This document shows positions 13,511 through 48,855 of a stretch of 50,517 nucleotides of DNA, piece after piece. The position numbers were made by a program, and so were the translations under genes. The stretch's first letter is position 1. Each line of letters starts with the position of its first letter. The DNA is from Bacteroidota bacterium (GTDB lineage: Bacteria; Bacteroidota; Bacteroidia; B-17B0; Aurantibacillaceae), in NCBI GenBank assembly GCA_030681615.1, contig JAUXSA010000100.1, positions 1 through 50,517 of the forward strand, read 5' to 3'. The notes beneath the pieces are model-generated. The model saw only the letters and a program-made list of their open reading frames with translations, ran no database searches and was not told where the DNA came from.

Positions 13511-15436
13511 TTAATATTCGCCACTTACTTTTCGTTTATTTAAACTTTTAATTTTTGACACCGGTAATTTTTCGGGGACAGTTTCAAATTCGATCTTTTC
13601 ATTCAACGATCTAATAAAAGCAAGCAAATTACTTTTGTCTTCTTTACTTAAATGCAATGAATCGGATGATAAAGTTTGATTTGGAACGTGCAAACCTTTA
13701 CCAATACCTCCGCCTGCATCATAAAAATCAATAACCTGATCTAATGTATTAAACACGCCATTATGCATATAAGGTGCGGTTTTTGCAGCATTCCTGATAG
13801 TTCCGGTTCTGAATGCATTTGCCATTTCGGCTGCAGGATTTATACCAAACCTACCCTTATCCAAACTTAACTCTTTGTAAGTAGTATCGTTTGGCACTCC
13901 CAAAACTTCAAATTCAGAACCAACATACGGAGGTTTTACACCGTTAAACTGCGGCGCAAAATGACAAGTAGCACATTGCGCTTTACTCATAAAAACATTA
14001 AAGCCTTTTTTTACGGGCTCTTCAAGCGCAACATTGTTATTCATAGCCAAATCAAATGGTGAATAATATTTACTGAATTTACCATAATATAAAGTAATAG
14101 CCGACGACACATGTTCAATAGTTATTTCTTTCTCAGCAGGTGTATATTTTAAAAATTCTTTAAAAGCAGTTTTATAGTCGTTACAGCTTAATATTTTTTT
14201 TAATACCTCCTGTTCGTTACTGCCTAACTCTATTGGATTTGTTATAACATCTTTTGTTTGATGTTGCAAAGAAATATGTTTTCCATCTAATAAGATCAAA
14301 TGATTGTACGGTGCATTAATAAGTGATGGCGAATTTCTTGGTAAAAAAGTTTTACCATCAAATTGCAAGGATGTATTAGTTAAGGTGTCTGTAAAATGCT
14401 GGGCAGGCTTATGACAGGAGGCACAGCTTCTTAAATTATTACCAGATAGTATAGGATCGTAGAACAATAATTTTCCTATTTTTTCTATTTCAGCTAATAC
14501 TTTTTTATCCTGTACACGTAAAAAAATGCCTTTTGAATTTTGTCCATTATATAAATTCTTACTAAAAATTGATGCGCTGTTTTTATTTAACGAATAATCA
14601 ACATTACTTTTTGTGCTTACATTATATTCTTTTATTAGTTGCTGGTTAATGGTAAATAATGGATTAATATAATCCTTTATGAATGTAAAGTGGTCAAATT
14701 GCCCGGGATCTGACGGTTGTTTTTTTACGAACTCTATAGTTGCATTGTATAATTCAATATAATTAGTTGGTAATACCGTGCCTTCGAAACTTGAATTAAA
14801 CGAAACGTATGTTTTATATACCGCATCCAACATAGCACGTAACTCTGGAATTACTTGTTCATGCTCCGGACATTCAAAACCAGTAGTATAAATAGCTGCA
14901 AGGTTTAATAAAAATAAGCGATTGCATAAAAAAAAGTGATGGTGTTCCTTTAACTGATCAGTAATAGAATCTGCATTAAACACCTGCGTAGCATTAATGG
15001 AGGAACGAATAAGCTCTAACAAAACATTCTTTTCAATATTTTTTTCTTCCAGGTAAAGTGCGGCAAGCGTTAAACCTGCACCTTCACGTTTATATGGCTT
15101 TTCGAATTTTTCAAACACTTCCGTTTCCCATTCAACAGGCAAGGGTCCATTTATTTTTTTATAGGAGATGGGTTCAAGATAGCGCAGCCAAAGGTCCATA
15201 CTTTTTAAAGCAAGGCGCGTATTATTTACTTGTAATTTTATCTTTTCAATATCTTTCACGGTTGAAAGATCACTCTTCTCAATACATTCCAATAAAAACG
15301 ACTGCCTGCTTTTGAAGATCGATAATTTAGTTTGGTAATCATTTGAATAATCGTTGTTGGTGACCGTCTTTTTGAAGGAAAAAGTAACACAAATTATAAA
15401 CAGAAAAAGAACTATTGTTATTATCTTTTGTTTCAT
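13511..15436 (-). CDS. di-heme cytochrome c peroxidase (MauG-like) with long N-terminal domain, copy A
   Basis: 641 residues, about twice the length of a plain bacterial cytochrome c peroxidase (about 300-350). After a signal or anchor (1-20) comes a helical region of about 290 residues without heme sites, then the peroxidase core with heme motifs 'CASCH' (338-342) and 'CATCH' (488-492), 'MHNGVFNTLDQVIDFY' and the tail 'LNKRKVSGEY'. The family reduces H2O2 or, as in MauG, uses high-valent hemes to oxidise a protein partner. It lies between the PhoX-like gene and the mono-heme cytochrome on the same strand. The N-terminal region aligns by eye with copies at 17771 and 33305 but is the most divergent: 'GAGLTLAALYLEE' replaces the 'GFQxxE' segment. 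Confidence 0.9.
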   Translation of the reverse strand: MKQKIITIVLFLFIICVTFSFKKTVTNNDYSNDYQTKLSIFKSRQSFLLECIEKSDLSTVKDIEKIKLQVNNTRLALKSMDLWLRYLEPISYKKINGPLPVEWETEVFEKFEKPYKREGAGLTLAALYLEEKNIEKNVLLELIRSSINATQVFNADSITDQLKEHHHFFLCNRLFLLNLAAIYTTGFECPEHEQVIPELRAMLDAVYKTYVSFNSSFEGTVLPTNYIELYNATIEFVKKQPSDPGQFDHFTFIKDYINPLFTINQQLIKEYNVSTKSNVDYSLNKNSASIFSKNLYNGQNSKGIFLRVQDKKVLAEIEKIGKLLFYDPILSGNNLRSCASCHKPAQHFTDTLTNTSLQFDGKTFLPRNSPSLINAPYNHLILLDGKHISLQHQTKDVITNPIELGSNEQEVLKKILSCNDYKTAFKEFLKYTPAEKEITIEHVSSAITLYYGKFSKYYSPFDLAMNNNVALEEPVKKGFNVFMSKAQCATCHFAPQFNGVKPPYVGSEFEVLGVPNDTTYKELSLDKGRFGINPAAEMANAFRTGTIRNAAKTAPYMHNGVFNTLDQVIDFYDAGGGIGKGLHVPNQTLSSDSLHLSKEDKSNLLAFIRSLNEKIEFETVPEKLPVSKIKSLNKRKVSGEY

Positions 15437-17770: not shown

Positions 17771-19693
17771 TTAATACTCTCCGCCAATTTTTCGGGCATT
17801 CAATCTTGAATTGTCAATTTTTGGCAAGCGTTTTGGTACCGAAGTTAGGTTGGTTGTATCAGTTAAAGTCAACAAAAAAGATTTAATGTCTTTTAATTCG
17901 GTTTTTGTTAAACCCAAAGAATCAAATGGTAATGTTTGATTCTCAACTTTAAATTTTAATCCTGCGCCACCCCCTTTATTATAAAATTCAAGAACCTGGT
18001 CTAAATTTGAATAAGCGCCATTATGCATATATGGTGCAGTTAAAGCTATATTTCTTAGTGTTGGGGTCTTAAATGCAAATTTGTGAATGCTTTTTTTGGA
18101 AACTGCTTCTCTACCAATATCATCATCCATAATTTTATTGGTGGAGTCTGTTGGTGTTCCTATTACTTCAAATTCGCTATCGTTAAACATTGGCGGAACA
18201 GTTCCATTAAACACCGGAAAAAAATGACAGGAACCACATAACGCTTTACCATTAAATAAATTAAAACCGCTTATCTCATGCTTATTAAGAGTAGAATAAT
18301 TTCCAGAAATATATTTATCAAATCTACTATTTTTAGATTCTAAGGTTTTAATATATTCTGCAATAGATTTTATTACAGCATAAAACGTTATGATCGTATC
18401 TGGCGAATTAACAAACGCTTTTTTAAAAAGTTGTTTGTATTCGGAGCTTTGCTTTAATTTTGAAATAATATCCTCTTTCGACATCTTCATTTCCTGCTCG
18501 TTGTGAAAAACATTATCTGCCTGTTCTTCCAAATTAAATGCCCTGCCATCATAAAAAAATAATTTCTGTAAAGAGGAATTCAATAAGGTAGGTGCATTTC
18601 TTGAAATTTTGTTTTTATTATCAAAAGCAATGCTCTTATCCAAACCATCAGTAAATGCCATATTTGGTTGGTGGCAGGAGGCGCATGCCCGTTTATTATT
18701 ATTTGAAAGAAGCGGGTCAAAAAAAAGTAATTTTCCTAGTGAAGCCTGTTCTTTATTATTTAAAGTATCATACCTGTAAATAGAAAAATGTTGCTTATTT
18801 AAGTTTGAAATAGTAAAAAGCGATACTTGTTTTAGTTTAACCGCGTAATTTACCTGCGAGGACGGCACATTCATACTTACCAAAAATGCAGTGAGGTTTT
18901 TATATGCAGGATTTAAATGCCTTGTAATAAAAAAAAGTCTGTCGAATTTATCTGAATCAGTATCTTTTAATAATTGTTTTATACAATTATTCAGATCGTC
19001 TTTTGCTTTTTTATAAACCTTGCTATCTGCTGGAACGTTTTTATAAGCTCCGAGAACTTTTACTATTCCCGAAACAGAAGAAGCACATTCGGTTAAACTT
19101 TCTTTATTAATTGTGCAATCATAACCGTTAAGTGTAAGGCACATTATTCTAATTACCTCAAGTTGTAATGCTTCATTTAAATTTGCTTGTTCAAGTGTAA
19201 CGGTAGAATAATATTCAAATAAAGAATCAAATTTTTGAGATAATAATTTGTATTGCTTTAATAATTCTTCGGAGTTAAATTTGTCTTTACTAAAGAGTTG
19301 GTCTTCTATCACCTGGAAACCCTGCGGCTCGTAAACTATTGGGCCAAACTCGATCTCATTCTTAGGAACAAGCGGACCATTAATAAAATATTTAGCATCA
19401 AAGGCTGAATAATACTCAATAAAAAATTCTATTTCCTTATAGTATTTTCTAGCCCGCCTATACTCTAAGATCAATAGCGAGTCTGCATGTTCAGCCTTAA
19501 TATTTATACTATTTTCTGATGTTTTAAGAGAAGAAATGATCTTTGTTATGTTCTTTAAAACCATTTCCCGACAAAACTCTTCAGGCGAACGTTCTTTTAC
19601 ATTTTGCTTAAATGAAACAACAAAAGGTATCCCTATTAGTAAAAATAGAGATACCCATGTAGTTTTCCGAAAAGAAACAAAAAAACCAGGCAC
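17771..19693 (-). CDS. di-heme cytochrome c peroxidase (MauG-like) with long N-terminal domain, copy B
   Basis: 640 residues; heme motifs 'CASCH' (337-341) and 'CGSCH' (486-490), 'MHNGAYSNLDQVLEFYNKGGG' and the conserved tail 'LNARKIGGEY'. The N-terminal region (about 35-290) is helical and holds 'YFINGPLVP' and 'EPQGFQVIED' (about 122-131), a G-x-x-x-x-E pattern recalling the GxHxxE motif of imelysin-like proteins. No in-frame ATG lies near the hydrophobic anchor (13-28); the start used is the GTG at 19693. An out-of-frame ATG and a run of seven T's lie close by, so a start shift is possible. It follows the purple-acid-phosphatase-like gene by 13 bp, so the two are probably co-expressed. Confidence 0.88.
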   Translation of the reverse strand: MPGFFVSFRKTTWVSLFLLIGIPFVVSFKQNVKERSPEEFCREMVLKNITKIISSLKTSENSINIKAEHADSLLILEYRRARKYYKEIEFFIEYYSAFDAKYFINGPLVPKNEIEFGPIVYEPQGFQVIEDQLFSKDKFNSEELLKQYKLLSQKFDSLFEYYSTVTLEQANLNEALQLEVIRIMCLTLNGYDCTINKESLTECASSVSGIVKVLGAYKNVPADSKVYKKAKDDLNNCIKQLLKDTDSDKFDRLFFITRHLNPAYKNLTAFLVSMNVPSSQVNYAVKLKQVSLFTISNLNKQHFSIYRYDTLNNKEQASLGKLLFFDPLLSNNNKRACASCHQPNMAFTDGLDKSIAFDNKNKISRNAPTLLNSSLQKLFFYDGRAFNLEEQADNVFHNEQEMKMSKEDIISKLKQSSEYKQLFKKAFVNSPDTIITFYAVIKSIAEYIKTLESKNSRFDKYISGNYSTLNKHEISGFNLFNGKALCGSCHFFPVFNGTVPPMFNDSEFEVIGTPTDSTNKIMDDDIGREAVSKKSIHKFAFKTPTLRNIALTAPYMHNGAYSNLDQVLEFYNKGGGAGLKFKVENQTLPFDSLGLTKTELKDIKSFLLTLTDTTNLTSVPKRLPKIDNSRLNARKIGGEY

Positions 19694-31497: not shown

Positions 31498-33351
31498 ATG
31501 AAAAAGCTTCTGATCCTAATATGTATTTTTTTGGTGAAAGATCTTTACCAACAAACCAATCATAAAATAACTTTACAACCCTGCTTAAAACCTTTTTATC
31601 ATGGCGTTGCTTCCGGCGACCCAATGACCGACAGGGTAATTATTTGGACACGTGTAACTCCTGATACTAACCAGATAAACCAATCTATTATTGTGGACTG
31701 GAAAATTGCAACTGATACAGGAATGGTGAACGTTATTAACCAGGGAACTTTATTAACCGATTCAACAAAAGATTTTACTGTAAAAGTAGATGCAACAGGA
31801 TTAAATCCTAACACATTTTATTTTTATGAATTTAAAGCTAACGGAAAATATTCTCCACGTGGAAGAACAAGAACAACGCCTTTAGCCGCTGCGGATAGTT
31901 TACGTTTTGCCCTTGTATCCTGTGCCAATTTTGAAGCGGGTCTTTTTAATTCGTATGCGAGTTTATTAGCGCGTAAAGATTTTGATGCTGTACTTTCTCT
32001 TGGTGATTATATATATGAATATAATACTGGTGGATATTCGCCTAATCCTGCAACACCATCAAGGACCTGGTCTCCCGCAAATGAAATTATTTCAATCGCA
32101 GATTACCGCATGCGTTATTCGTCGTATAGATTAGATCTTGATCTGCAACGATTGCATCAACAATTTCCTTTTGTTTGTGTTTATGATGATCATGAATTTT
32201 CAAATGATGCATGGATCAATGGTGCAGGCAATCATCAGGCTGGTGAAGGTCCCTGGAACGCAAGAAAACAATGTGCGCAAAAAGCTTTTTTTGAATGGTT
32301 ACCGGTTAGGGTAACAGGAACTATTAATCCTTACCAGATCTACAGAAAAATAAAATACGGTAATCTTGTAGACCTGATCATGATGGACACGAGGGTTGAA
32401 GGGCGAGATCTGCAAGCTGGTACTTCGGGGGCAACAGTTACAAGTCCAACAAGACAACTATTAGGATCAACACAATATAATTGGTGGAAAAACAAAATGG
32501 ATTCAAGTACAGCACAATGGAAAGTCTTAGGTCAACAGGTTATGATGGCCCCGTTACAGGTTTTTGGAATTGGTTTTAATGGCGACCAGTGGGATGGTTA
32601 CCCTGCACAAAGATCAAATATTTACAACCATGTTCTTAGTAACAATATTTCAAATATGGTTGTAATAACTGGTGATATCCATTCTTCGTGGGCAAACGAC
32701 CTTCCCACTGCAACATATAACAGTAGTACAGGAGCGGGATCTGCAGGTGTTGAATTTGTGACGCCAAGTGTAACTTCACCAGGAATGAGCATTCCGTTAG
32801 GCGCATCAGCTATTATGGCTGCCAATGGTCACATAAAATATACAAACTTATCAGCGCATGGTTATGTAATTATGGATATAAATCAAAACCGCACGCAGGC
32901 AGATTGGTACCATATTACAACTATTGATAATCCAAGTACAGCGTATACATATGCTACTTCTTTTAAGGTAAATAATTTTCAAAGACATTTAATACCTGTT
33001 GGTTCGGCTTCTTTACCAAGACAAAGTATTTATCACATCCTTGCGCCTTTATGTCCAAGGCCTGCTTTAATAACGTCTTTGAACGATACATACAAAGAAA
33101 ATATTTTCCTTTCGGTTTATCCAAATCCTTCAATGGATTATGTTACCATACAATTTAACAACAGTAACCAGGGTAAGGTAAAGATATCTGTTTGTGATGC
33201 TGCCGGAAAAATTGTTTATGATCATACAGATGTCATAGATCAGGGTGTTAATAAACACTATATTAATTCTACATCTTTTAGTGAAGGGATTTATTTTATA
33301 AAAATTGAAACCGTTGGGAATTCAGAAACTATTAAGTTCGTTAAGCAGTAA
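31498..33351 (+). CDS. phoD: PhoD-family alkaline phosphatase with T9SS tail
   Basis: 617 residues. PhoD N-terminal domain starts at 'FYHGVASGDPMTDRVIIWTR' (33-52); the catalytic domain has 'VSCANFEAG' (C142, the position of the Fe-ligand Cys), 'SLGDYIYEY' (167-175), 'YDDHEFSND' (229-237) and 'TGDIHSSW'. The T9SS type A domain begins at 'LSVYPNPSMDYVTI'. PhoD enzymes hydrolyse phosphomono- and diesters and use an Fe/Ca centre. The signal peptide is short and not a Tat signal, in keeping with T9SS export. The 3' end overlaps the next gene by up to 47 bp. Confidence 0.92.
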   Translation: MKKLLILICIFLVKDLYQQTNHKITLQPCLKPFYHGVASGDPMTDRVIIWTRVTPDTNQINQSIIVDWKIATDTGMVNVINQGTLLTDSTKDFTVKVDATGLNPNTFYFYEFKANGKYSPRGRTRTTPLAAADSLRFALVSCANFEAGLFNSYASLLARKDFDAVLSLGDYIYEYNTGGYSPNPATPSRTWSPANEIISIADYRMRYSSYRLDLDLQRLHQQFPFVCVYDDHEFSNDAWINGAGNHQAGEGPWNARKQCAQKAFFEWLPVRVTGTINPYQIYRKIKYGNLVDLIMMDTRVEGRDLQAGTSGATVTSPTRQLLGSTQYNWWKNKMDSSTAQWKVLGQQVMMAPLQVFGIGFNGDQWDGYPAQRSNIYNHVLSNNISNMVVITGDIHSSWANDLPTATYNSSTGAGSAGVEFVTPSVTSPGMSIPLGASAIMAANGHIKYTNLSAHGYVIMDINQNRTQADWYHITTIDNPSTAYTYATSFKVNNFQRHLIPVGSASLPRQSIYHILAPLCPRPALITSLNDTYKENIFLSVYPNPSMDYVTIQFNNSNQGKVKISVCDAAGKIVYDHTDVIDQGVNKHYINSTSFSEGIYFIKIETVGNSETIKFVKQ

Positions 33352-35245
33352 AAATAAACGCTTACTGTGTATTGCCGGAATTCATTTTATTGCCATTGAA
33401 GGCATATTACTGAGTTTTTCGTTTATTGGAATTCAACCGCAGAATGTCAATGTAATTATTGATACTCATTTTGGCAAGCTCATCGAAAATATTGATAGCC
33501 TTGAAAAGAATGTGGTAGAAAACAGGCCCATCACGCAAAAACAATTTTATTACACCTTATCGCGTAAAAATTACAAATATCTTGAAACAGTTATTGAATA
33601 TGTTTCGCCTTTTTTTGCCAAGTATTATATTAATGGGCCACCCATTAGGAAACATGATCTTGAAAGTGGCAATAAAGTTATTGAACCACACGGCTTTCAA
33701 TTACTGGAAACTTTTTTTTTTACCGACAACAACAGCTTGTCAAAAGAAGAAATAGTTTACGAGATCAGACTCCTTAAGGAAACGATCGTTCAAACACGAA
33801 AAAAATACAAAAGTGTAACTCCAAGAACTGAGCAGTATTTTGACATGATACAAATGGAATTGGTACGCATTATCAGTTTAAACATCAATGGTTACGATTG
33901 CGCTATCACCAAAGACAATATACAAGAAACTACTTTTATTTTTGACGGCATATTAGGGGTTCTTGAAGGTATTGAAGAGGTTAGAGAGAAAGGCCGGTCG
34001 CTTCCAAAAATAAAAAAACTAATTTCAGATTCCAAAAAATATCTATCCTTAAACAAGGGGTACGATTCATTTAACCGGTTATATTTTATTACAGATTACG
34101 TTAAGCCGCTTTATTCAATGGTGCAAAAAATGAGGGACGAATTACAGCTATCAAGCACGCCGGTAAATTACGCTATCAATTTCAGTGAAAATAATTTATT
34201 TGACAAAACCTTTTTTAACAGATATTTTTTTTCGGTTAACATATCCGACTCAACAAATATAGTAGCGCAAACAGAGCTTGGAAAGAATTTATTTTTCGAT
34301 CCTATTTTATCTGGTAATAATAAGCGTGCCTGTGCCTCTTGCCATAAACCTGAGTTTGCCTTTTCAGATACGATCAATAAAAATTTTGAATATAACCGAT
34401 CAGGTGTTGTTAAGAGAAATACACCGGCTTTATTAAACGTTATGTATCAAAAAAATTTCTTTTATGACGGAAGGTCGTTACAATTAGAAGACCAGGTAAG
34501 CGATGTGTTACATGCGCAAAATGAAATGAATTCTATTCCTGCAGAAATAGTAAATAAGTTAAGGCAAAGCGATGACTACAGAAATTTATTCAAAAAAGCT
34601 TTCAACGGCAAGGCCGATACCGCCATAACATTTTACGGAGTTTTAAAATCCATATCTGAATTTGAAAAAACGCTATTATCATTGAATTCAAAATTTGATA
34701 AATACATTAAGGGAGATAAAAAAGCATTAAACCAAAATGAAATAAACGGTTATAATGTTTTTGCCGGAAAGGCATTATGTGGCTCTTGTCATTTTTTACC
34801 TTTATTCAATGGGCTTGTACCTCCTGTTTATAATGATAATGAATTTGAAGTTATTGGCACATTAAAAAGTCCTAACTCTAATGAACTTGATCCCGATAGC
34901 GGCAGGATCTTAATTACAAAAAAGAACATCCATGCCTTTTCATTTAAAACGCCGGGTATACGAAACATTGCAAGTACATTTCCTTATATGCATAATGGCG
35001 CTTACAGAACTTTAGAAGAGGTGATTGAATTTTATAACAAAGGTGGTGGGAGTGTTAGTGCACAAAAGATCGAACATCAAACTTTGCCTTTCGATTCTTT
35101 ACAACTTTCAACTAAAGAAAAACAGGATATAAAATATTTCTTATTAAGCCTGTCAGATAACCCTTACAAAAACATAACTCCAAAAAAACTGCCAAAAATT
35201 AAAGATCCCGTTCTTAATGAAAGGAAAATTGGAGGGGAATATTAA
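33305..35245 (+). CDS. di-heme cytochrome c peroxidase (MauG-like) with long N-terminal domain, copy C
   Basis: 646 residues in the frame from TTG 33305. Heme motifs 'CASCH' and 'CGSCH', 'MHNGAYRTLEEVIEFYNKGGG' and the shared tail 'LNERKIGGEY' are present. The N-terminal helical region (about 45-280) contains 'YYINGPPI' and 'EPHGFQLLE', matching copy B closely. No ATG exists before the anchor segment 'LLCIAGIHFIAIEGILLSF'; candidates are TTG at 33305 or 33314, inside the end of phoD. Translation therefore probably depends on coupling to phoD, with re-initiation around its stop codon. The true start is uncertain. Follows phoD, just as copy B follows a phosphatase gene. Confidence 0.87.
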   Translation: MKPLGIQKLLSSLSSKNKRLLCIAGIHFIAIEGILLSFSFIGIQPQNVNVIIDTHFGKLIENIDSLEKNVVENRPITQKQFYYTLSRKNYKYLETVIEYVSPFFAKYYINGPPIRKHDLESGNKVIEPHGFQLLETFFFTDNNSLSKEEIVYEIRLLKETIVQTRKKYKSVTPRTEQYFDMIQMELVRIISLNINGYDCAITKDNIQETTFIFDGILGVLEGIEEVREKGRSLPKIKKLISDSKKYLSLNKGYDSFNRLYFITDYVKPLYSMVQKMRDELQLSSTPVNYAINFSENNLFDKTFFNRYFFSVNISDSTNIVAQTELGKNLFFDPILSGNNKRACASCHKPEFAFSDTINKNFEYNRSGVVKRNTPALLNVMYQKNFFYDGRSLQLEDQVSDVLHAQNEMNSIPAEIVNKLRQSDDYRNLFKKAFNGKADTAITFYGVLKSISEFEKTLLSLNSKFDKYIKGDKKALNQNEINGYNVFAGKALCGSCHFLPLFNGLVPPVYNDNEFEVIGTLKSPNSNELDPDSGRILITKKNIHAFSFKTPGIRNIASTFPYMHNGAYRTLEEVIEFYNKGGGSVSAQKIEHQTLPFDSLQLSTKEKQDIKYFLLSLSDNPYKNITPKKLPKIKDPVLNERKIGGEY

Positions 35246-44266: not shown

Positions 44267-44295
44267 AACATTTTCTTCTGCATCATTTCCAAAGT

Positions 44296-44315
44296 TCATC
44301 GTCTTTATGCGATGA
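44296..44315. promoter_or_regulatory. dyad over the arsR start codon, possible operator
   Basis: TCATCG (44296-44301) and CGATGA (44310-44315) form an inverted repeat with an 8-base spacer that covers the ATG at 44312. A wider pair CATCAT/ATGATG surrounds it. As DNA it could be the ArsR operator; as RNA it could shield the start codon. It lies just after the predicted transcription start. Confidence 0.4.
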
Positions 44316-44605
44316 TGAGTAATGATACAACCAAATTAGCGGCATTTTACAAGACACTTGGGCACCCTGCAAGGCTACAGATCCTTTCCAAACTCTTAGT
44401 TTGCGAATCCTGTTTTTGCAAAGATTTCGTTGATGATCTCAAATGGTCGCAAGCCACAATTTCCGAACATCTTAAAAAATTAAAAAAAGCGGGGCTTATA
44501 TCACTTAGTATTAAGGGTGTTAACTCTCAATATCGGCTGAACCAAAATAATGATCTGCATCTTTTTTTAAATCCTCCGTCTTACTATACAAAAACCATAA
44601 AATGA
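44312..44605 (+). CDS. arsR: ArsR-family metalloregulator
   Basis: 97 residues with the ArsR winged-helix pattern: 'LGHPARLQILSKLL', 'QATISEHLKKLKKAGLI' (recognition helix) and 'GVNSQYRLN' (wing). The sensory site is 'CESCFC' (C31, C34, C36); the last two match the CxC of As(III)/Sb(III)-responsive ArsR proteins in the DNA-binding helix region. Metalloid binding should release DNA and turn on the operon. It overlaps the flavoprotein gene by 4 bp (ATGA). Another thiophilic metal is possible. Confidence 0.88.
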   Translation: MMSNDTTKLAAFYKTLGHPARLQILSKLLVCESCFCKDFVDDLKWSQATISEHLKKLKKAGLISLSIKGVNSQYRLNQNNDLHLFLNPPSYYTKTIK

Positions 44606-45879
44606 AAAATAATAATTTACCCGTAGCAGTAATTGGAGCCGGGCCGGTTGGAATGGCGGCCGCTGCGCATCTAACCAAAAGAAATATCCCTTTCATTCTT
44701 TTTGAAAGCCGTAATACGGTTGGTGGCAATATCACTTCATGGGCGCATGTAAATGTGTTCTCTCCTTGGAAATACAATGTAGATAAAGCCGCAAAAGAAT
44801 TATTAGACCGCGCGGGATGGACTCATCCGCCGGAAGAAAAAGTACACAGTGGTAAGGAGTTTATCGATCTCTATTTAAATCCGCTTGCTTCAATACCTGT
44901 CATAAAACCTCACATCCATCTTAACTCCAAAGTAGTAGCTATCGGAAGAAAGAACATGGATAAAATGAAGGATAAGCATCGTGAGAATGTGCCTTTTGTA
45001 ATTAGAGTAAAACAGGGTGACAAATACAATTTGTTCGAGGCAAAAGCGGTGATCGATGCAAGTGGTTCATGGCTTAATCCTAATCCGGTTGGCTCTGATG
45101 GAAACTTTGCTATTGGCGAAACAGAAAATGCTTCACGCATATTTTATGGGATTCCTGATGCGTCAAAAAAATCTGAAGAACGTTATGCTAACAAAAAGAT
45201 GGCTGTTGTAGGTTCTGGTCACTCTGCTATCAATACAATTTTTGAGCTAGAAAAGATCAAAGACAAATTTCCTGATACGGAGATCAATTGGATCCTTCGT
45301 AAACAAAATATAAAAGATGTTTATGGCGGACAGGCTAATGATCAGCTTGCCGCTCGTGGTGAATTAGGAATCAAGATAGAACAATTAGTGAATTCTGAAA
45401 AAGTAAATATCTACACCCCTTTTAGAATTGAGGAGATCCGCAAAATGGAATCCAAAGTAGCATTGATCGGTTACCAAGGCGACCGTCGCGCTATGATCCC
45501 CCATATTGATGAAATAATATCCAACACCGGTTCACGTCCCGATTTTTCATTCTTAGGTGAGATTAGATTAAGCGTCAGCAGTTCGGTTGAGAGCAGCGCA
45601 GCAATTGCTGACCTGATAGACCCCAATCTTCACAGCTGCGGTTCTGTTCGCCCACACGGCGAATTAGAACTAGCACATGCTGAAAAAGATTTTTACATCG
45701 TTGGGATAAAAAGCTACGGCCGTGCACCAACATTTTTAATGGCTACAGGTTACGAGCAGGTACGTTCGGTAGTAGCTGCGCTTGATGGTGATATGGAAGC
45801 AGCTCGTAAAGTTGAATTAGAATTGCCTGAAACAGGCGTTTGTAATTCAGGAAGAGGAGAAGGTGCTTGTTGTGCTTAA
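44602..45879 (+). CDS. ArsO-like FAD/NAD(P)-binding oxidoreductase
   Basis: 425 residues. N-terminal FAD Rossmann motif 'GAGPVG' (12-17) with 'LFESRNTVGGN' after it, a second dinucleotide motif 'VVGSGHSA' (about 199-206), 'ISNTGSRPDF' and a C-terminal FAD-contact segment 'IVGIKSYGRAPTFLMATGYEQ'. It resembles flavin-containing monooxygenases of the ArsO type found in ars operons, whose exact chemistry is not settled. The last 15 residues carry C414 and a terminal Cys pair (C423, C424), a feature shared with neighbouring products. It overlaps arsR and the MFS gene, so the genes are coupled. Confidence 0.8.
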   Translation: MKNNNLPVAVIGAGPVGMAAAAHLTKRNIPFILFESRNTVGGNITSWAHVNVFSPWKYNVDKAAKELLDRAGWTHPPEEKVHSGKEFIDLYLNPLASIPVIKPHIHLNSKVVAIGRKNMDKMKDKHRENVPFVIRVKQGDKYNLFEAKAVIDASGSWLNPNPVGSDGNFAIGETENASRIFYGIPDASKKSEERYANKKMAVVGSGHSAINTIFELEKIKDKFPDTEINWILRKQNIKDVYGGQANDQLAARGELGIKIEQLVNSEKVNIYTPFRIEEIRKMESKVALIGYQGDRRAMIPHIDEIISNTGSRPDFSFLGEIRLSVSSSVESSAAIADLIDPNLHSCGSVRPHGELELAHAEKDFYIVGIKSYGRAPTFLMATGYEQVRSVVAALDGDMEAARKVELELPETGVCNSGRGEGACCA

Positions 45880-47011
45880 CGCTACACTCAAATATTCATT
45901 GTTGTCATCATCAGTTTTAGCGTTGGCAGGATTGGGAGATTCATTTCTCTACATTTATCTTCCTGCCAACTATAAAAGCCTTGGCCTCTCGGTATTCTGG
46001 GTTGGTATTCTTTTGTCTGTTAACAGGTTCACGCGCTTATTGCTAAATTCCCGGGTAGCTTACCATTTAAGTAAGCATGGCATCAAAACTATTACGGTAG
46101 CAACAATTGTTATGGCAATATTAACAACGCTAATTTATGGCTTTGTTAATTCCATTTTTCTTTGGCTCATCGCTCGTGTATTGTGGGGCATATCATTTTC
46201 AACACTTCGTTTGAGTAATATCATTTATGCCTTACAACATAATAAGCAAGGTTTTTCATTAGGCCTTAGTAAAAGTATTACAGAGATCGGTTCTGTACTA
46301 GTTTTATTGATCGGCCCTGTTTTAATTTTACATTTCGAACGTAGTTTAACTTTTATCTTTCTTGCCTCACTTTCTGCAATTGGATTGCTTTTAGCTCTTG
46401 CTTTACCACAATTAAAAATTAAACCTGTAGCTCGCAAAGAGCTCATTCTTTCTTTTCCATCCGCATTAAATATATTGGTGTTGTTAAACACATTTGTTGT
46501 CGAAGGAATGCTGGTGGTTTTAACAGGTCGTTTAATTTATGATGGGATAAATATTTCTGCATTACAAGTTCTTACAATTGCAGGATTCTATTTGGCTTAT
46601 CGCCGTATATGCCTGATCTTCTTTTCTCCTCTTTCCGGATGGATGGCTGATAAATTCGGTTTTCAATCTTTATTTAATTATACAGCACTGTTTTTAGTTA
46701 TTGGAATCGCTCTAATAGCATTTGGTGTTACTTTACCCGGAATAATTATAGCCTTTACGTTCTCGGCTATGAATGCATCTGTAGCTCCAGGTAGTGCTTT
46801 AACTCAGCCCGCATCAATGGTCAAAGATATTTCAGACAATGCAACATGGCGTGATATTGGCGCCGCCTTTGGAACATTAACCGGATCATTATTGCTCAAT
46901 ATTTCTTACCTTCATATTGTATTTATGGTATCTCTTATTCCAATATCTATAGGTTTGTTCGTTCAATTCAATAACTCAAAAAAGAAAACTATCTACAATG
47001 GAATTAGCTGA
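45863..47011 (+). CDS. MFS transporter of the arsR operon
   Basis: 382 residues (GTG at 45863; GTG at 45872 has better spacing, 11 bases, from AGAGGAGA and may be the real start). About 12 hydrophobic helices, with 'GLGDSFLYIYLPANYKSLG' in helix 1 and 'SGWMADKFG' in the loop after helix 8, typical of the major facilitator superfamily. In ars operons MFS proteins such as ArsJ and ArsK export arsenic species, so efflux of the operon's ligand or its modified form is likely; the substrate is inferred. It overlaps the upstream gene and overlaps the sigma factor gene by 14 bp. Confidence 0.82.
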   Translation: MLVVLNATLKYSLLSSSVLALAGLGDSFLYIYLPANYKSLGLSVFWVGILLSVNRFTRLLLNSRVAYHLSKHGIKTITVATIVMAILTTLIYGFVNSIFLWLIARVLWGISFSTLRLSNIIYALQHNKQGFSLGLSKSITEIGSVLVLLIGPVLILHFERSLTFIFLASLSAIGLLLALALPQLKIKPVARKELILSFPSALNILVLLNTFVVEGMLVVLTGRLIYDGINISALQVLTIAGFYLAYRRICLIFFSPLSGWMADKFGFQSLFNYTALFLVIGIALIAFGVTLPGIIIAFTFSAMNASVAPGSALTQPASMVKDISDNATWRDIGAAFGTLTGSLLLNISYLHIVFMVSLIPISIGLFVQFNNSKKKTIYNGIS

Positions 47012-47570
47012 AGTATATACCAAGTTTCGTAAATCGCTGTTTAATTACATTTACAGCAAGATCAACAATCGTGAAGATGCGGAGGATATTTTGCAGAATG
47101 TGTTTGTAAAAATGCAAATCAATATTGACACACTTTATGATAAAGAAAAAATTCAAAACTGGTTATACAGGATCACCCGCAATGCCATTATAGATTACTA
47201 CCGTAGTAAAGGCAATAAAAAAAGCAATTTAGAGCTTACTGAAAAATTCCCGGCTGATCTTGACGAGGAACAATCTTCTGATAATACAAAAGGGATGGAT
47301 AAATGCGTGAAAGGATTTATTAACCAATTGCCTGAAGAATACAAATCCATAATTATTGATTCCGAATTAAAAGGCATCCCACAAAAGGAACTTTCTAAGA
47401 AATACGATCTCGAATACGTTACGCTTCGCTCACGTGTTCAACGTGGCCGTGAGCGCATCCATAAAATGTTCACAAAATGCTGTGCTATTGAAACAGATAA
47501 GCGTGGTAATATTCTCGAAGCTTCTTTAAAAACCGGTTGCGATACGTCATGCGACTCTTCTTGTAATTAG
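46998..47570 (+). CDS. ECF sigma factor (SigZ-like) with cysteine-rich tail
   Basis: 190 residues. Region 2 (about 10-72) has 'NREDAEDILQNVFVKM' and 'QNWLYRITRNAIIDYYR'; region 4 (about 108-158) has 'LPEEYKSIIIDSELKGIPQKELSKKY' split around the helix-turn-helix 'VTLRSRVQRGRERI'. Beyond region 4 it has C161, C162 and the tail 'GCDTSCDSSCN' (C181, C185, C189; CxxxCxxxC). No anti-sigma gene is adjacent. In the CorE group a cysteine-rich C-terminal domain senses metal directly, so this factor may do the same. Its ATG lies in the end of the MFS gene; the next gene starts 1 bp after its stop. Confidence 0.88.
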   Translation: MELAEVYTKFRKSLFNYIYSKINNREDAEDILQNVFVKMQINIDTLYDKEKIQNWLYRITRNAIIDYYRSKGNKKSNLELTEKFPADLDEEQSSDNTKGMDKCVKGFINQLPEEYKSIIIDSELKGIPQKELSKKYDLEYVTLRSRVQRGRERIHKMFTKCCAIETDKRGNILEASLKTGCDTSCDSSCN

Positions 47571-47571
47571 C

Positions 47572-47811
47572 ATGAAAGGTTTGATTGAAAAGGCGGCGTT
47601 TTACAAAACGCTTATCGACCTCATGAAAAATCGTAAGGATGATATAGCCATTCCTGAAAAAGATAAAGCTCAGTTCTGCTTTATGCTTCATGATGAAGTG
47701 TTAAACGAAACTCACAAGGTAGAGGTAAATGATCTTAATGAATGGCTTACTGATGGTAGTTTCCAGAAGCATGATAAACTCTATATTTCCTTTCTTATTA
47801 AGGAGAATTAA
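47572..47811 (+). CDS. 79-residue protein of the sigma-factor operon
   Basis: 79 residues, starting 1 bp after the sigma factor stop. It is charged, soluble and has one cysteine ('KAQFCFML'). 'DEVLNETHKVEVNDLNEWLTDGSFQKHDKLYISFLIKEN' looks like a small alpha-beta fold. No membrane helix or anti-sigma domain is visible. Coupling to the sigma gene makes it a candidate sigma-binding partner or accessory factor. Not recognised as a named family. Confidence 0.65.
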   Translation: MKGLIEKAAFYKTLIDLMKNRKDDIAIPEKDKAQFCFMLHDEVLNETHKVEVNDLNEWLTDGSFQKHDKLYISFLIKEN

Positions 47812-47872
47812 TTCCTTGCATCATTTTCTCTCCACTCCGTCTTTATAGGTATAACGTATAAAACTTAATACC

Positions 47873-48058
47873 ATGAAAAACGAAACAATAGAAGTTCTTG
47901 AGAAGAACAAAGTCGAAAAAAATGAATCTAGCTGCTGCGGCGGAGCTCCTTCTGCTAACGAGGATGCTTGCTGTAAACTGGATGAAGAAAAGAAAGCCGA
48001 AGGTGAATCAGGGTGCGGTTGCAACACCGATCCTAAGAAAAAATCTTCTTGCTGTTAA
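47873..48058 (+). CDS. cysteine-rich 61-residue protein
   Basis: 61 residues with eight cysteines arranged as four pairs or near pairs: C21/C22 ('SSCCGG'), C33/C34 ('ACCK'), C48/C50 ('GCGC') and C60/C61 (the C-terminal 'SSCC'). The rest is Glu/Lys-rich and likely unstructured without ligand. No signal peptide, so cytoplasmic. The pattern suggests a metallothionein-like binder of a soft metal or arsenite. It follows the sigma-factor operon by about 60 bp, on the same strand. Confidence 0.75.
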   Translation: MKNETIEVLEKNKVEKNESSCCGGAPSANEDACCKLDEEKKAEGESGCGCNTDPKKKSSCC

Positions 48059-48124
48059 GCATCATTTTTAAAAAGCAACGTCTTTAAAGGTTAATTCAAT
48101 TATTGTCTAACTAAAAAAAGAAAA

Positions 48125-48325
48125 ATGAGAAAGAGAATTCTTATGGCTACTTCCGCTTTAGCAATTACAGCGGGTAGTATCTTTGCCTACGCCAACACAG
48201 GCGGCAAAACAGTTGTTGCGAAAGCTTCAACAGAGCAATGCCCGCCTGAGTGCTGTAATGGTAACGGTGGCGATTGCGGCCCCGACCATTGCGGAAAAGG
48301 TGGCGAAGCATGTTGCGAAAAGTAA
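48125..48325 (+). CDS. exported cysteine-rich 66-residue protein
   Basis: 66 residues: a Sec signal peptide ('RKRILMATSALAITAGSIF', about 1-22) then a short Gly-rich mature part with seven cysteines (C39, C43, C44, C51, C56, C63, C64), including 'ECCNG' and the C-terminal 'ACCEK'. It is likely a periplasmic metal or metalloid chelator or carrier. A terminator begins 6 bp after its stop codon. Its cysteine-pair style matches the neighbouring 61- and 48-residue proteins, though sequence similarity is low. Confidence 0.75.
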   Translation: MRKRILMATSALAITAGSIFAYANTGGKTVVAKASTEQCPPECCNGNGGDCGPDHCGKGGEACCEK

Positions 48326-48330
48326 AACAA

Positions 48331-48360
48331 AAAGGTAGCCTTAGGGGCTACCTTTCTTTC
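48331..48360 (+). terminator. terminator after the exported cysteine-rich gene
   Basis: AAAGGTAGCC (48331-48340) pairs with GGCTACCTTT (48346-48355) around TTAGG, followed by CTTTCTTAAA. It lies 6 bp beyond the stop of the exported protein. The last small gene of the group starts 15 bp later, so it depends on read-through or its own promoter. Confidence 0.8.
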
Positions 48361-48375
48361 TTAAATAAAATCAAA

Positions 48376-48522
48376 ATGAAATTTATTGAATTATTAAAAA
48401 GTATTTATCGGTCAATTAAAGAGATCGATTTAAATTACTCTTACAGGGATTTACAATCCGAAGAAGAAATTATTGATGAGACCTCGCGATGTTGTAAATC
48501 AACCGAGATATTCTGTGAGTAG
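48376..48522 (+). CDS. 48-residue protein with C-terminal cysteines
   Basis: 48 residues from ATG 48376. The N-terminal two thirds is a likely amphipathic helix ('FIELLKSIYRSIKEIDLNY'), the end is 'SRCCKSTEIFCE' with C39, C40 and C47. The 'CC' near the C-terminus matches the other products of this cluster, which is the main reason to call it. A longer frame reaching back to 48274 runs through the previous gene and its terminator and is unlikely. Not recognised. Confidence 0.55.
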   Translation: MKFIELLKSIYRSIKEIDLNYSYRDLQSEEEIIDETSRCCKSTEIFCE

Positions 48523-48604: not shown

Positions 48605-48697
48605 TAACTTCGCTGATCTCTCCTAACCATAAGTCAAAATGCAAAAGTAATTTTGCTTCGCAAAATGCTTTTTGTTATTCCTTATGCTTTTGAAAAT
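48599..48697. repeat. hairpin repeat element, copy A
   Basis: Starts with a strong hairpin (48597-48623; stem GGAGAGATTAAC with GCTGATCTCTCC, triloop TTC), then CCATAAGTCAAAATGCAAAA, then ATTTTGC-TTC-GCAAAAT and GCTTTTTG. Its first 50 bases match copy B at 47 positions, offset 160 bp. The CATAAG/CTTATG ends also pair, making one long folded unit. Confidence 0.6.
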
Positions 48698-48758: not shown

Positions 48759-48855
48759 AGAGATTAACTCCGTTGATCTATCCTAACCATAAGTCAAAAT
48801 GCAAAAGTCGTTGTTTTGCAACGCTTTTTTGTTTTCCGCATCCGCTTTTGAAAGC
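48759..48855. repeat. hairpin repeat element, copy B
   Basis: GATTAAC-TCC-GTTGATC (48761-48777) is the first hairpin, followed by the conserved CCATAAGTCAAAATGCAAAA and a second hairpin CGTTG-TTTTG-CAACG flanked by CAAAAGT and CTTTTTTG. The second hairpin has a different sequence from that of copy A but the same position and flanks, which argues that structure is what is kept. Confidence 0.6.

Follow-up and report, generated by a model that had tools for sequence, protein, structure and literature searches.

The window considered here is a 50,517-nucleotide stretch from a Bacteroidota bacterium of the Aurantibacillaceae (NCBI GenBank assembly GCA_030681615.1, contig JAUXSA010000100.1, positions 1 to 50,517), whose genome is available as a 4.28-Mb draft. 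Toward the 3′ end of the window lies an operon, on the + strand throughout, in which a gene for an ArsR metalloregulator is joined to genes for a flavoprotein, a transporter of the major facilitator superfamily (MFS), a SigZ-like sigma factor of the extracytoplasmic function (ECF) group and several small proteins, and in which an ECF-type promoter motif occurs four times. The features are as follows.

44279 to 44307, + strand: promoter motif 1, ECF-type, TGCATCATT-N12-CGTCTTTA, with the end of CGTC 8 nt 5′ of the arsR ATG.
44312 to 44605, + strand: arsR, a metalloregulator of the ArsR/SmtB family (NF033788, PF01022) with 97 aa and Cys 31, 34 and 36 (CxC).
44556 to 44584, + strand: promoter motif 2, ECF-type, within the 3′ end of arsR and 21 nt 5′ of the flavoprotein ATG.
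44602 to 45879, + strand: putative ArsV-type flavoprotein using flavin adenine dinucleotide (FAD) and NAD(P)H, 425 aa, with a Cys tail (C414, C423, C424), assigned by family scans, homology and an AlphaFold2 model.
45863 to 47011, + strand: predicted MFS exporter, 382 aa, with a GTG start (PF07690, 44.7 bits); its homologues adjoin the flavoprotein in other loci.
46998 to 47570, + strand: SigZ-like ECF sigma factor (NF007215, TIGR02959), 190 aa, with the tail CC-x18-C-x3-C-x3-C.
47572 to 47811, + strand: p79, a protein of 79 aa with homologues only in two relatives of the same genus.
47817 to 47845, + strand: promoter motif 3, ECF-type, 5′ of C61.
47873 to 48058, + strand: C61, 61 aa with 8 Cys, by homology a free-standing copy of the C-terminal Cys domain of the flavoprotein.
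48058 to 48086, + strand: promoter motif 4, ECF-type, with AGCATC (one change), 5′ of C66.
48125 to 48325, + strand: C66, a small Cys-rich protein of 66 aa with 7 Cys and relatives in other loci.
48331 to 48355, + strand: predicted intrinsic terminator hairpin (-15.9 kcal/mol), whose base pairing is kept in the related locus L039 despite changed bases.
48376 to 48522, + strand: C48, an open reading frame (ORF) of 48 aa with CC, a marginal member 3′ of the terminator.

The arsR/flavoprotein, flavoprotein/MFS and MFS/sigma gene pairs overlap by 4, 17 and 14 nt, and a gap of 1 nt parts the sigma gene from p79. The ORF positions and this run of five overlapping or touching genes agree with an original prediction made from the sequence letters. 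Its statement that six of the eight products carry CxC, CC or C-terminal cysteines also proved correct when the residue positions were checked (ArsR, flavoprotein, sigma factor, C61, C66 and C48); the MFS protein and p79 have one Cys each and no such feature. Judged from these sequences and their relatives, the operon is probably a sigma-factor-controlled variant of the ArsV/exporter detoxification module. By the accounts given in two papers, ArsV is a flavin enzyme that oxidises methylarsenite, while ArsW exports methylarsenate and ArsK exports methylarsenite (PMC10080717, PMC11719878).

The flavoprotein had first been described as ArsO-like. This identity is rejected, since the ArsO model NF040505 scores 37.6 bits against a cut-off of 425 and aligns only with residues 8-220; the type is that found beside arsK, presumably ArsV. 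Over its full length the protein is 47.5% identical to the flavoprotein of the arsR-flavoprotein-arsK locus of Ensifer adhaerens E-60, and it is 46.4% identical to the counterpart in Bosea F3-2 (both alignments cover about 420 residues). It is most likely an ArsV-type enzyme that would oxidise Sb(III) and trivalent organoarsenicals. The best 25 of 78 NCBIfam hits include no model named ArsV.

In the phylum, 6 of 395 genomes, its own included, carry a relative of the flavoprotein at E ≤1e-20, and at least 585 relatives are found in named genomes. The best 80 of these, mostly from Bacilli with others from Bacteroidota, Chloroflexi and Proteobacteria, were joined with loci L039, L053 and L055-L057 to give a set of 85 loci. 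Locus L058 is from the same contig as L040 and L078 from the same genome as L054, and of these four only L058 and L078 belong to the set. Within 4 kb of the flavoprotein, ArsR is found in 46 loci, ArsC in 37, ArsB in 32 and Acr3 in 6, with at least one of the four present in 56; a cluster of ArsN-type GCN5-related N-acetyltransferases (GNAT) is found in 25 and a SigZ-cluster gene in 12. Absences are soft in the 16 loci that have less than 4 kb of sequence on one side. On plasmids, arsR-flavoprotein-MFS sets adjoin arsenite oxidase in Ensifer adhaerens p-3, arsH/arsC/acr3 in Bosea F3-2 and arsJ in Neotabrizicola. Every one of the 76 flavoproteins of the set with a readable tail has at least three Cys from the ETGV[C] position on, and 65 have CC. 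The metalloid assignment of the original prediction is thus borne out by the ars neighbourhoods of these loci and of the operon's own relatives.

The AlphaFold2 model of the flavoprotein has a predicted local distance difference test (pLDDT) score of 86.5, with weaker regions in the tail and in loops around two invariant motifs, HSCG (343-348) and YGRAP (373-375). In a structure search with this model, the closest folds are bacillithiol disulfide reductases of the YpdA type, followed by ferredoxin-NADP reductases, N-hydroxylating monooxygenases and flavin-containing monooxygenases. Because YpdA is nearest and the monooxygenases stand behind it, the modelled fold by itself cannot tell an oxygenase from a reductase. 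The flavoprotein could thus be read as a YpdA-like NAD(P)H disulfide or thiol reductase that keeps C61 and C66 or a low-molecular thiol reduced, the operon then serving against metal-induced thiol stress of any kind and not for arsenic oxidation. YpdA is the best structural match, with a template modelling (TM) score by target of 0.84; the YpdA model TIGR04018 is the top NCBIfam hit, Pfam Pyr_redox_3 is matched above its cut-off (53.1 against 30 bits), and in Roseivirga the promoter motif described below precedes a PIG-L-type gene and a 75-aa Cys-rich ORF. However, the TIGR04018 score of 44.2 bits is far under the family cut-off of 339.9, the flavoprotein reads GAGPVG at what is presumably the position of the catalytic Cys of YpdA, and members of the flavoprotein family adjoin arsB, arsC, ArsN-type GNATs and arsK. 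A reductase of this kind is therefore considered unlikely, and the ArsV-type reading is kept.

What sets the operon apart is its promoter motif. Two boxes at fixed spacing are found 5′ of arsR, C61 and C66, and again 5′ of the flavoprotein gene inside the end of arsR. The consensus TGCATC[AT]TT-N12-CGTCT holds at arsR, the flavoprotein and C61, with one change at C66. Promoters read by ECF sigmas typically have CGTC as their -10 element. Two exact patterns have three matches each in the 4.28-Mb genome, all inside the operon, and a mildly degenerate form (up to 2 mismatches) has 5 matches in the window where 1.08 are expected. In 14 whole genomes the consensus has 22 matches, spread over 8 genomes, and its reversed control has none; the C66 site, which differs in its first base, lies outside this count. 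Eight of the matches lead to the flavoprotein, eight to small Cys-rich genes, two to arsR and one to SigZ, which places 19 of the 22 at genes of these four kinds; of the other three, one leads to a secreted-looking Cys-bearing protein, one to a PIG-L-type gene and one to no assigned gene. Among 31 sites in total, chosen by pattern, T follows CGTC in 26 of the 27 that have the common 29-nt spacing.

Across 296 phylum genomes the motif has 12 matches against 1 for the reversed control. Three of the 12 are in the window genome, 2 are at a SigZ locus in genome G156 and 7 are elsewhere. Six of these seven lie within ORFs of more than 100 aa on either strand and the seventh has no ORF of at least 40 aa starting within 150 nt, so that none of the seven is like the operon sites. 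At this background, the Poisson chance of three or more matches in one genome is about 2e-6. The window, L039 and L040 served to define the motif, and the independent cases of the TGCATC form are L059-L061, L054 and L184. A loose form of the motif is matched 23 times in 61 SigZ loci (672 kb) and 6 times in 91 control loci (1292 kb); L078, which holds one of these 6, is from the same genome as L054 of the SigZ set.

The first box appears to change with the sigma paralogue. A second form, TGCGTCTTTT-N11/12-CGTC, has 7 matches in 9 genomes; it was read from relatives before scanning, so that the evidence here is its rarity and not its discovery. Five of the seven are single matches in genomes of the same genus, within about 220 nt of a SigZ paralogue. 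In L041 the site leads into the sigma gene itself, and in L042, L044 and L046, less clearly in L043, the sites point to tiny Cys-rich ORFs on the opposite strand. The other two are from Chryseolinea and lie 5′ of the flavoprotein and of a 68-aa Cys-rich gene. Genome G021, which has both sigmas, carries both forms of the motif, and G454 carries the TGCGTC form only. These comparisons suggest an ECF-like promoter for the enzyme, ArsR and the two Cys-rich genes that tracks the SigZ-like sigma factor. Sigma-driven control of the enzyme and the small thiol proteins had been proposed in the original prediction with no evidence from the sequence, and the shared motif now speaks for it.

Two sites deserve separate mention. 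In Dawidia (G451), a TGCGTC-type motif near position 6287 of L293 lies 5′ of another SigZ-like gene, which is clustered with ArsR, ArsC and Acr3. In Roseivirga (G376), at about 3900-4715 of L295 and away from a flavoprotein, the motif lies 5′ of the PIG-L-type deacetylase gene already mentioned, followed by the 75-aa ORF; a link to a low-molecular thiol is possible there.

ArsR is supported as a member of its family (NF033788 59.5 bits against a cut-off of 55; PF01022 45.6 bits). Its C34-x-C36 pair is kept as CxC in L039, and it does not have the CC seen at the C-terminus of two other ArsRs of the genus. ArsR might be the sole controller of the operon, with the repeated motif serving for the binding of a repressor or activator, or as a constitutive promoter, and not as a SigZ promoter. 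That arsR comes first, encodes a CxC and has the motif 8 nt from its start codon fits this account. Yet the motif lacks symmetry and keeps a constant spacing, it also occurs in L059-L062, whose flavoproteins have no ArsR within 4 kb, and its first box reads TGCGTC beside the paralogous sigma of same-genus genomes, all of which makes sole control by ArsR improbable. The original order of events, in which ArsR responds first and the sigma factor amplifies, is not borne out either: a sigma-type promoter precedes arsR itself, and of the 12 flavoprotein loci that have a SigZ-cluster gene, 7 show no ArsR within 4 kb. The lack of a nearby ArsR in these seven suggests that the sigma factor can do without it, and the sigma may be the primary sensor.

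The sigma factor falls just short of the SigZ family models, with 188.4 bits for NF007215 (cut-off 212) and 165.4 bits for TIGR02959 (cut-off 168.65), and has Cys only at positions 103, 161, 162, 181, 185 and 189. In the phylum, 45 proteins match TIGR02959 at 111 bits or more, and 40 of their neighbourhoods were used as the SigZ set. An arsM, arsI, acr3, arsC or DUF6428 gene is near the sigma in 13 of these 40 and in none of 20 weaker ECF controls (Fisher p 0.002), the controls being lower-scoring relatives of unmatched lineage, with shorter loci in L213 and L230, and the ArsI references having been added after the SigZ set was seen (both sets were scored alike). NF041414 confirmed ArsI for two of the three proteins tested, and the third scored 112.5 against 116 bits. 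The sigma tails differ between the groups: among the 53 SigZ-like proteins, 45 have CC and 51 have two or more Cys in the tail, and among the 19 controls the corresponding numbers are 0 and 2.

Not all such loci point to arsenic, and the true signal could be a different toxicant with affinity for thiols (Cu, Cd, Hg, Te or reactive sulfur), with the ars neighbours reflecting shared thiol chemistry. Some SigZ-like loci adjoin P-type ATPases that look Cu-type (L210-L212) or SaoE/CuZn-like permeases (L188, L204), and sigma factors with CorE-type Cys tails are described as responding to metals, CorE to copper and CorE2 to Cd or Zn (PMC8999054, PMC3107203). However, ars genes accompany the flavoprotein family and the operons closest to this one (Cu, Hg and Cd genes having had no systematic search), and another toxicant is given very little weight beside a metalloid signal.

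Several variants of the SigZ-type locus were seen in the same sets. Related ECF sigmas in L210-L212, L213 and L215 have CxxC...CxC-like tails that are nearer to the CorE style than to the CC tail linked with ars genes; the ATPases next to them, found at L210-L212 and at the control L215 and not at L213, were called Cu-type by eye. In L188 and L204, SigZ is followed by a protein of about 80 aa that looks thioredoxin-like by eye and by a permease, which in L204 resembles SaoE/SO_0444 under both cut-offs. Five genomes from a single family (L178-L181 and L187) have three genes in a row, for a membrane-type protein of about 410 aa, for a SigZ-like sigma and for a C-As lyase of the ArsI/CadI type. 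No ars gene was seen beside the sigma of L046.

The operon recurs in close relatives. When 60 related genomes were searched for the sigma factor, its closest counterparts outside its own genome were in G021 (78% identity) and G025 (49%), both of the same genus, and the order flavoprotein-MFS-sigma-p79-C61-C66 is kept in both (loci L039 and L040, respectively). C61 is 78 and 73% identical and C66 65 and 62% identical in these loci. Recurrence of the order together with C61 and C66 in two genomes of the genus is more than chance. The expectation that such neighbourhoods would keep their Cys-rich genes therefore held in the two closest relatives, and other Cys-rich genes are present in L059-L062.

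Both relatives also place the operon beside ars genes. In L039 it is followed by two ORFs on the opposite strand and then by ArsR-ArsR-DUF6428-ArsC-aquaporin, and in L040 it is preceded by ArsR-GNAT-DUF6428-ArsC and a membrane-type ORF of 177 aa. The best NCBIfam match of this GNAT is ArsN1 family A, at 133.9 bits, under the cut-off of 170. The MFS gene of L040 (5446-6583) is in two ORF pieces, from a break or an assembly error. In the window genome, an ArsR-ArsR-DUF6428-ArsC-aquaporin set lies on contig C129, apart from the operon. Pfam and NCBIfam scans of the operon products found none of the genes of a standard ars operon (arsB or acr3 with arsC). The earlier statement that ArsA, ArsB, Acr3, ArsC and ArsM are missing thus holds for the operon, and the genome does have ArsC in the set on C129. 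No ArsM is found in the window genome above the family cut-off (best 37.5 against 263 bits), so methylarsenite, if it is the substrate, would come from outside the cell.

The original prediction also held that small thiol proteins capture the metalloid. This view is corrected in that C61 is no arbitrary thiol protein and is, by homology, a detached copy of the C-terminal Cys domain of the flavoprotein. A comparison of C61 with 72,556 plasmids gave matches in 11 records, each of them at the C-terminus of a flavoprotein ORF; Ensifer adhaerens and Bosea sp. AS-1 are among these records. The ORF of Bosea AS-1 (L238) has 383 aa, is unannotated in its record and may be a shortened copy. The C61 sequence is likewise the C-terminal tail of the flavoprotein itself in L053, L054/L078, L116 and L129. 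The shared pattern is CCGGxP-x6-ACC-x2-D-x3-K-..-GCGC, often with CC at the end. Weak matches (34-41% identity) occur in L057 and L069, and the match in L062 is in a separate ORF of 68 aa. In a tree, C61-fused flavoproteins occur in both halves, and whether fusion or separation came first is not settled by it; the count of changes ignores 75 unlabelled rows, and the text pattern missed the fused tail of L239. Other free-standing CC-rich proteins are encoded in operons of Dawidia (D. soli, L059), Aquimarina (A. macrocephali, L060), a Flavobacteriales bacterium (L061) and Chryseolinea. As read here, the C61 domain would bind trivalent metalloid and present it to the enzyme, in cis or in trans. 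Its status as a general Bacteroidota peptide was considered and rejected, as only 5 of the 296 phylum genomes have a match (E up to 0.01); these are the window itself, two matches within flavoprotein frames and two weak matches (E 0.005-0.009).

The remaining small products are less easily placed. In Pfam and NCBIfam, C61, C66, C48 and p79 have no family except for a chance-level match of C66 (E 0.03). The N-terminus of C66 is signal-peptide-like as judged by eye, and shorter relatives of C66 adjoin other SigZ loci (L042, L044, L046). C48 is 28% identical to a 42-aa ORF in L039 only; it was not detected in L040 (E up to 0.01), has no match in the larger locus scan and, being 3′ of the predicted terminator, is a weak candidate for membership of the operon. 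p79 is 54-70% identical to its homologues in the two genus relatives, and a possible identity as a known anti-sigma factor gained no support, as it hits no family and its model is of low confidence (pLDDT 63).

Taken together, the following course of events is proposed. The likeliest inducers are Sb(III) and methylated or aromatic arsenicals; on entry, such a trivalent metalloid would activate the SigZ-like sigma factor, with its Cys tail as the probable sensor, and the active sigma would read the motif and drive the four promoters of arsR, the flavoprotein, C61 and C66. The flavoprotein would then oxidise the trivalent species to a far less toxic pentavalent form with NADPH and O2, and the MFS protein would export the oxidised product. 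C61 would hold the thiophilic substrate and hand it over, as the fused form may do in other bacteria, while C66 would bind metalloid outside the cytoplasm. ArsR would add repression through its CxC site and so limit the response.

A number of points weigh against this sigma-controlled ArsV/exporter reading, beyond the limits of the SigZ control set given above. The ArsV label comes from the type of locus and from accounts of ArsV in citing papers, and with YpdA as the closest fold a reductase is possible. The MFS protein does not match the ArsK model NF033733 at E up to 1 (cut-off 400), and an identity as ArsK is rejected for it; the MFS protein of Ensifer is ArsK by this model (513 bits) and that of Neotabrizicola is ArsK-like (219.7 bits). 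With 2 mismatches allowed, the motif has 9 forward matches in its own genome, of which 4 belong to the operon, and the reversed control has 3; the 7 matches of the TGCGTC pattern compare with 2 for its reversed control. Genome G148 has the flavoprotein and SigZ with no match to either form of the motif, and the SigZ-flavoprotein loci L056 and L057 have no motif match. One of the 12 SigZ-flavoprotein loci (L079) has a gene that only weakly matches the window sigma (17% identity). Finally, 27 of the 40 phylum SigZ loci have no strict ars gene within about 4.5 kb, and SigZ is therefore not arsenic-only.

A wider reading is held tentatively. The SigZ-like sigmas of Bacteroidota may be a new kind of one-component metalloid sensor, in which the CC...CxxxC tail of the sigma itself binds trivalent As or Sb with no anti-sigma and activates TGC[AG]TC-N-CGTC promoters for arsenic enzymes and small Cys-rich proteins. 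They would have replaced ArsR in part of the phylum, with paralogues differing in the first box and in the operon served. If the sigma factor acts through a promoter that is rare in the genome, its regulon could be read from sequence in Bacteroidota genomes; it would also supply a part for arsenic or antimony reporters and suggest a function for SigZ-like sigmas. In addition, the natural separation of the ArsV-type Cys tail as C61 makes the idea of a delivery domain testable.

Elsewhere in the window, positions 13118-36241 look like a phosphate-scavenging cluster with haem proteins. By eye, three ORFs resemble di-haem cytochrome c peroxidase/MauG (13511-15436, 17771-19693 and 33305-35245) and are interleaved with PhoX-like, purple-acid-phosphatase-like, PhoD-like and PstS-like ORFs. 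Two exact 26-nt copies 3′ of the operon (48623-48648 and 48783-48808) are possibly a small dispersed repeat.

Among known systems, the nearest in gene content are the loci that pair ArsV with ArsW or ArsK, recorded for Ensifer adhaerens ST2 and Paracoccus sp. SY (Chen 2021 and Zhang 2022, as cited in PMC10080717, PMC11719878 and PMC9144182). Like these, the window operon has ArsR, a flavin enzyme and an MFS exporter in a row, and the enzyme tail of Ensifer E-60 carries the C61 domain. Unlike these, it has an MFS protein of another subfamily, a separate gene for the Cys domain and an added SigZ-like sigma factor with its promoters. With ArsO (NF040505) the flavoprotein has in common the family of NAD(P)H-dependent flavoproteins of ars clusters, and it differs in the low score and partial alignment given above. 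The sigma factor matches SigZ (TIGR02959/NF007215) over nearly its full length, and differs in scoring just below both cut-offs.

For the mode of control, the nearest mechanistic precedent appears to be CorE. By the accounts in two papers, its Cys-rich tail controls activity, copper is needed for DNA binding and no anti-sigma factor is encoded beside it, and 21 CorE-type sigmas were reported in 2011 from Proteobacteria, Acidobacteria, Verrucomicrobia and Nitrospira (PMC3107203, PMC8999054). Like CorE and CorE2 of Myxococcus (ECF44/ECF238), the window sigma is an ECF sigma with a C-terminal Cys cluster and metal(loid)-resistance genes near it, and no anti-sigma was recognised among the operon products in Pfam and NCBIfam. 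Unlike CorE, it lacks the four invariant Cys in C-x2-C-x7-C-x-C (181, 184, 192, 194) and the CxC of the linker, and is thus not a CorE-like ECF44 sigma. As the spacing differs, the window sigma may work like CorE and is not called a CorE. Control of ars operons is commonly ascribed to ArsR (PMC11868830), and the nearest precedent of sigma control is described as sigma-54 acting on arsenite oxidase in Herminiimonas (PMC2848651); titles and opening parts of abstracts in the literature searched name no ECF sigma factor of an ars operon. What is new here is an ECF-like promoter motif and a sigma-controlled regulon added to a known kind of ArsV/exporter system.

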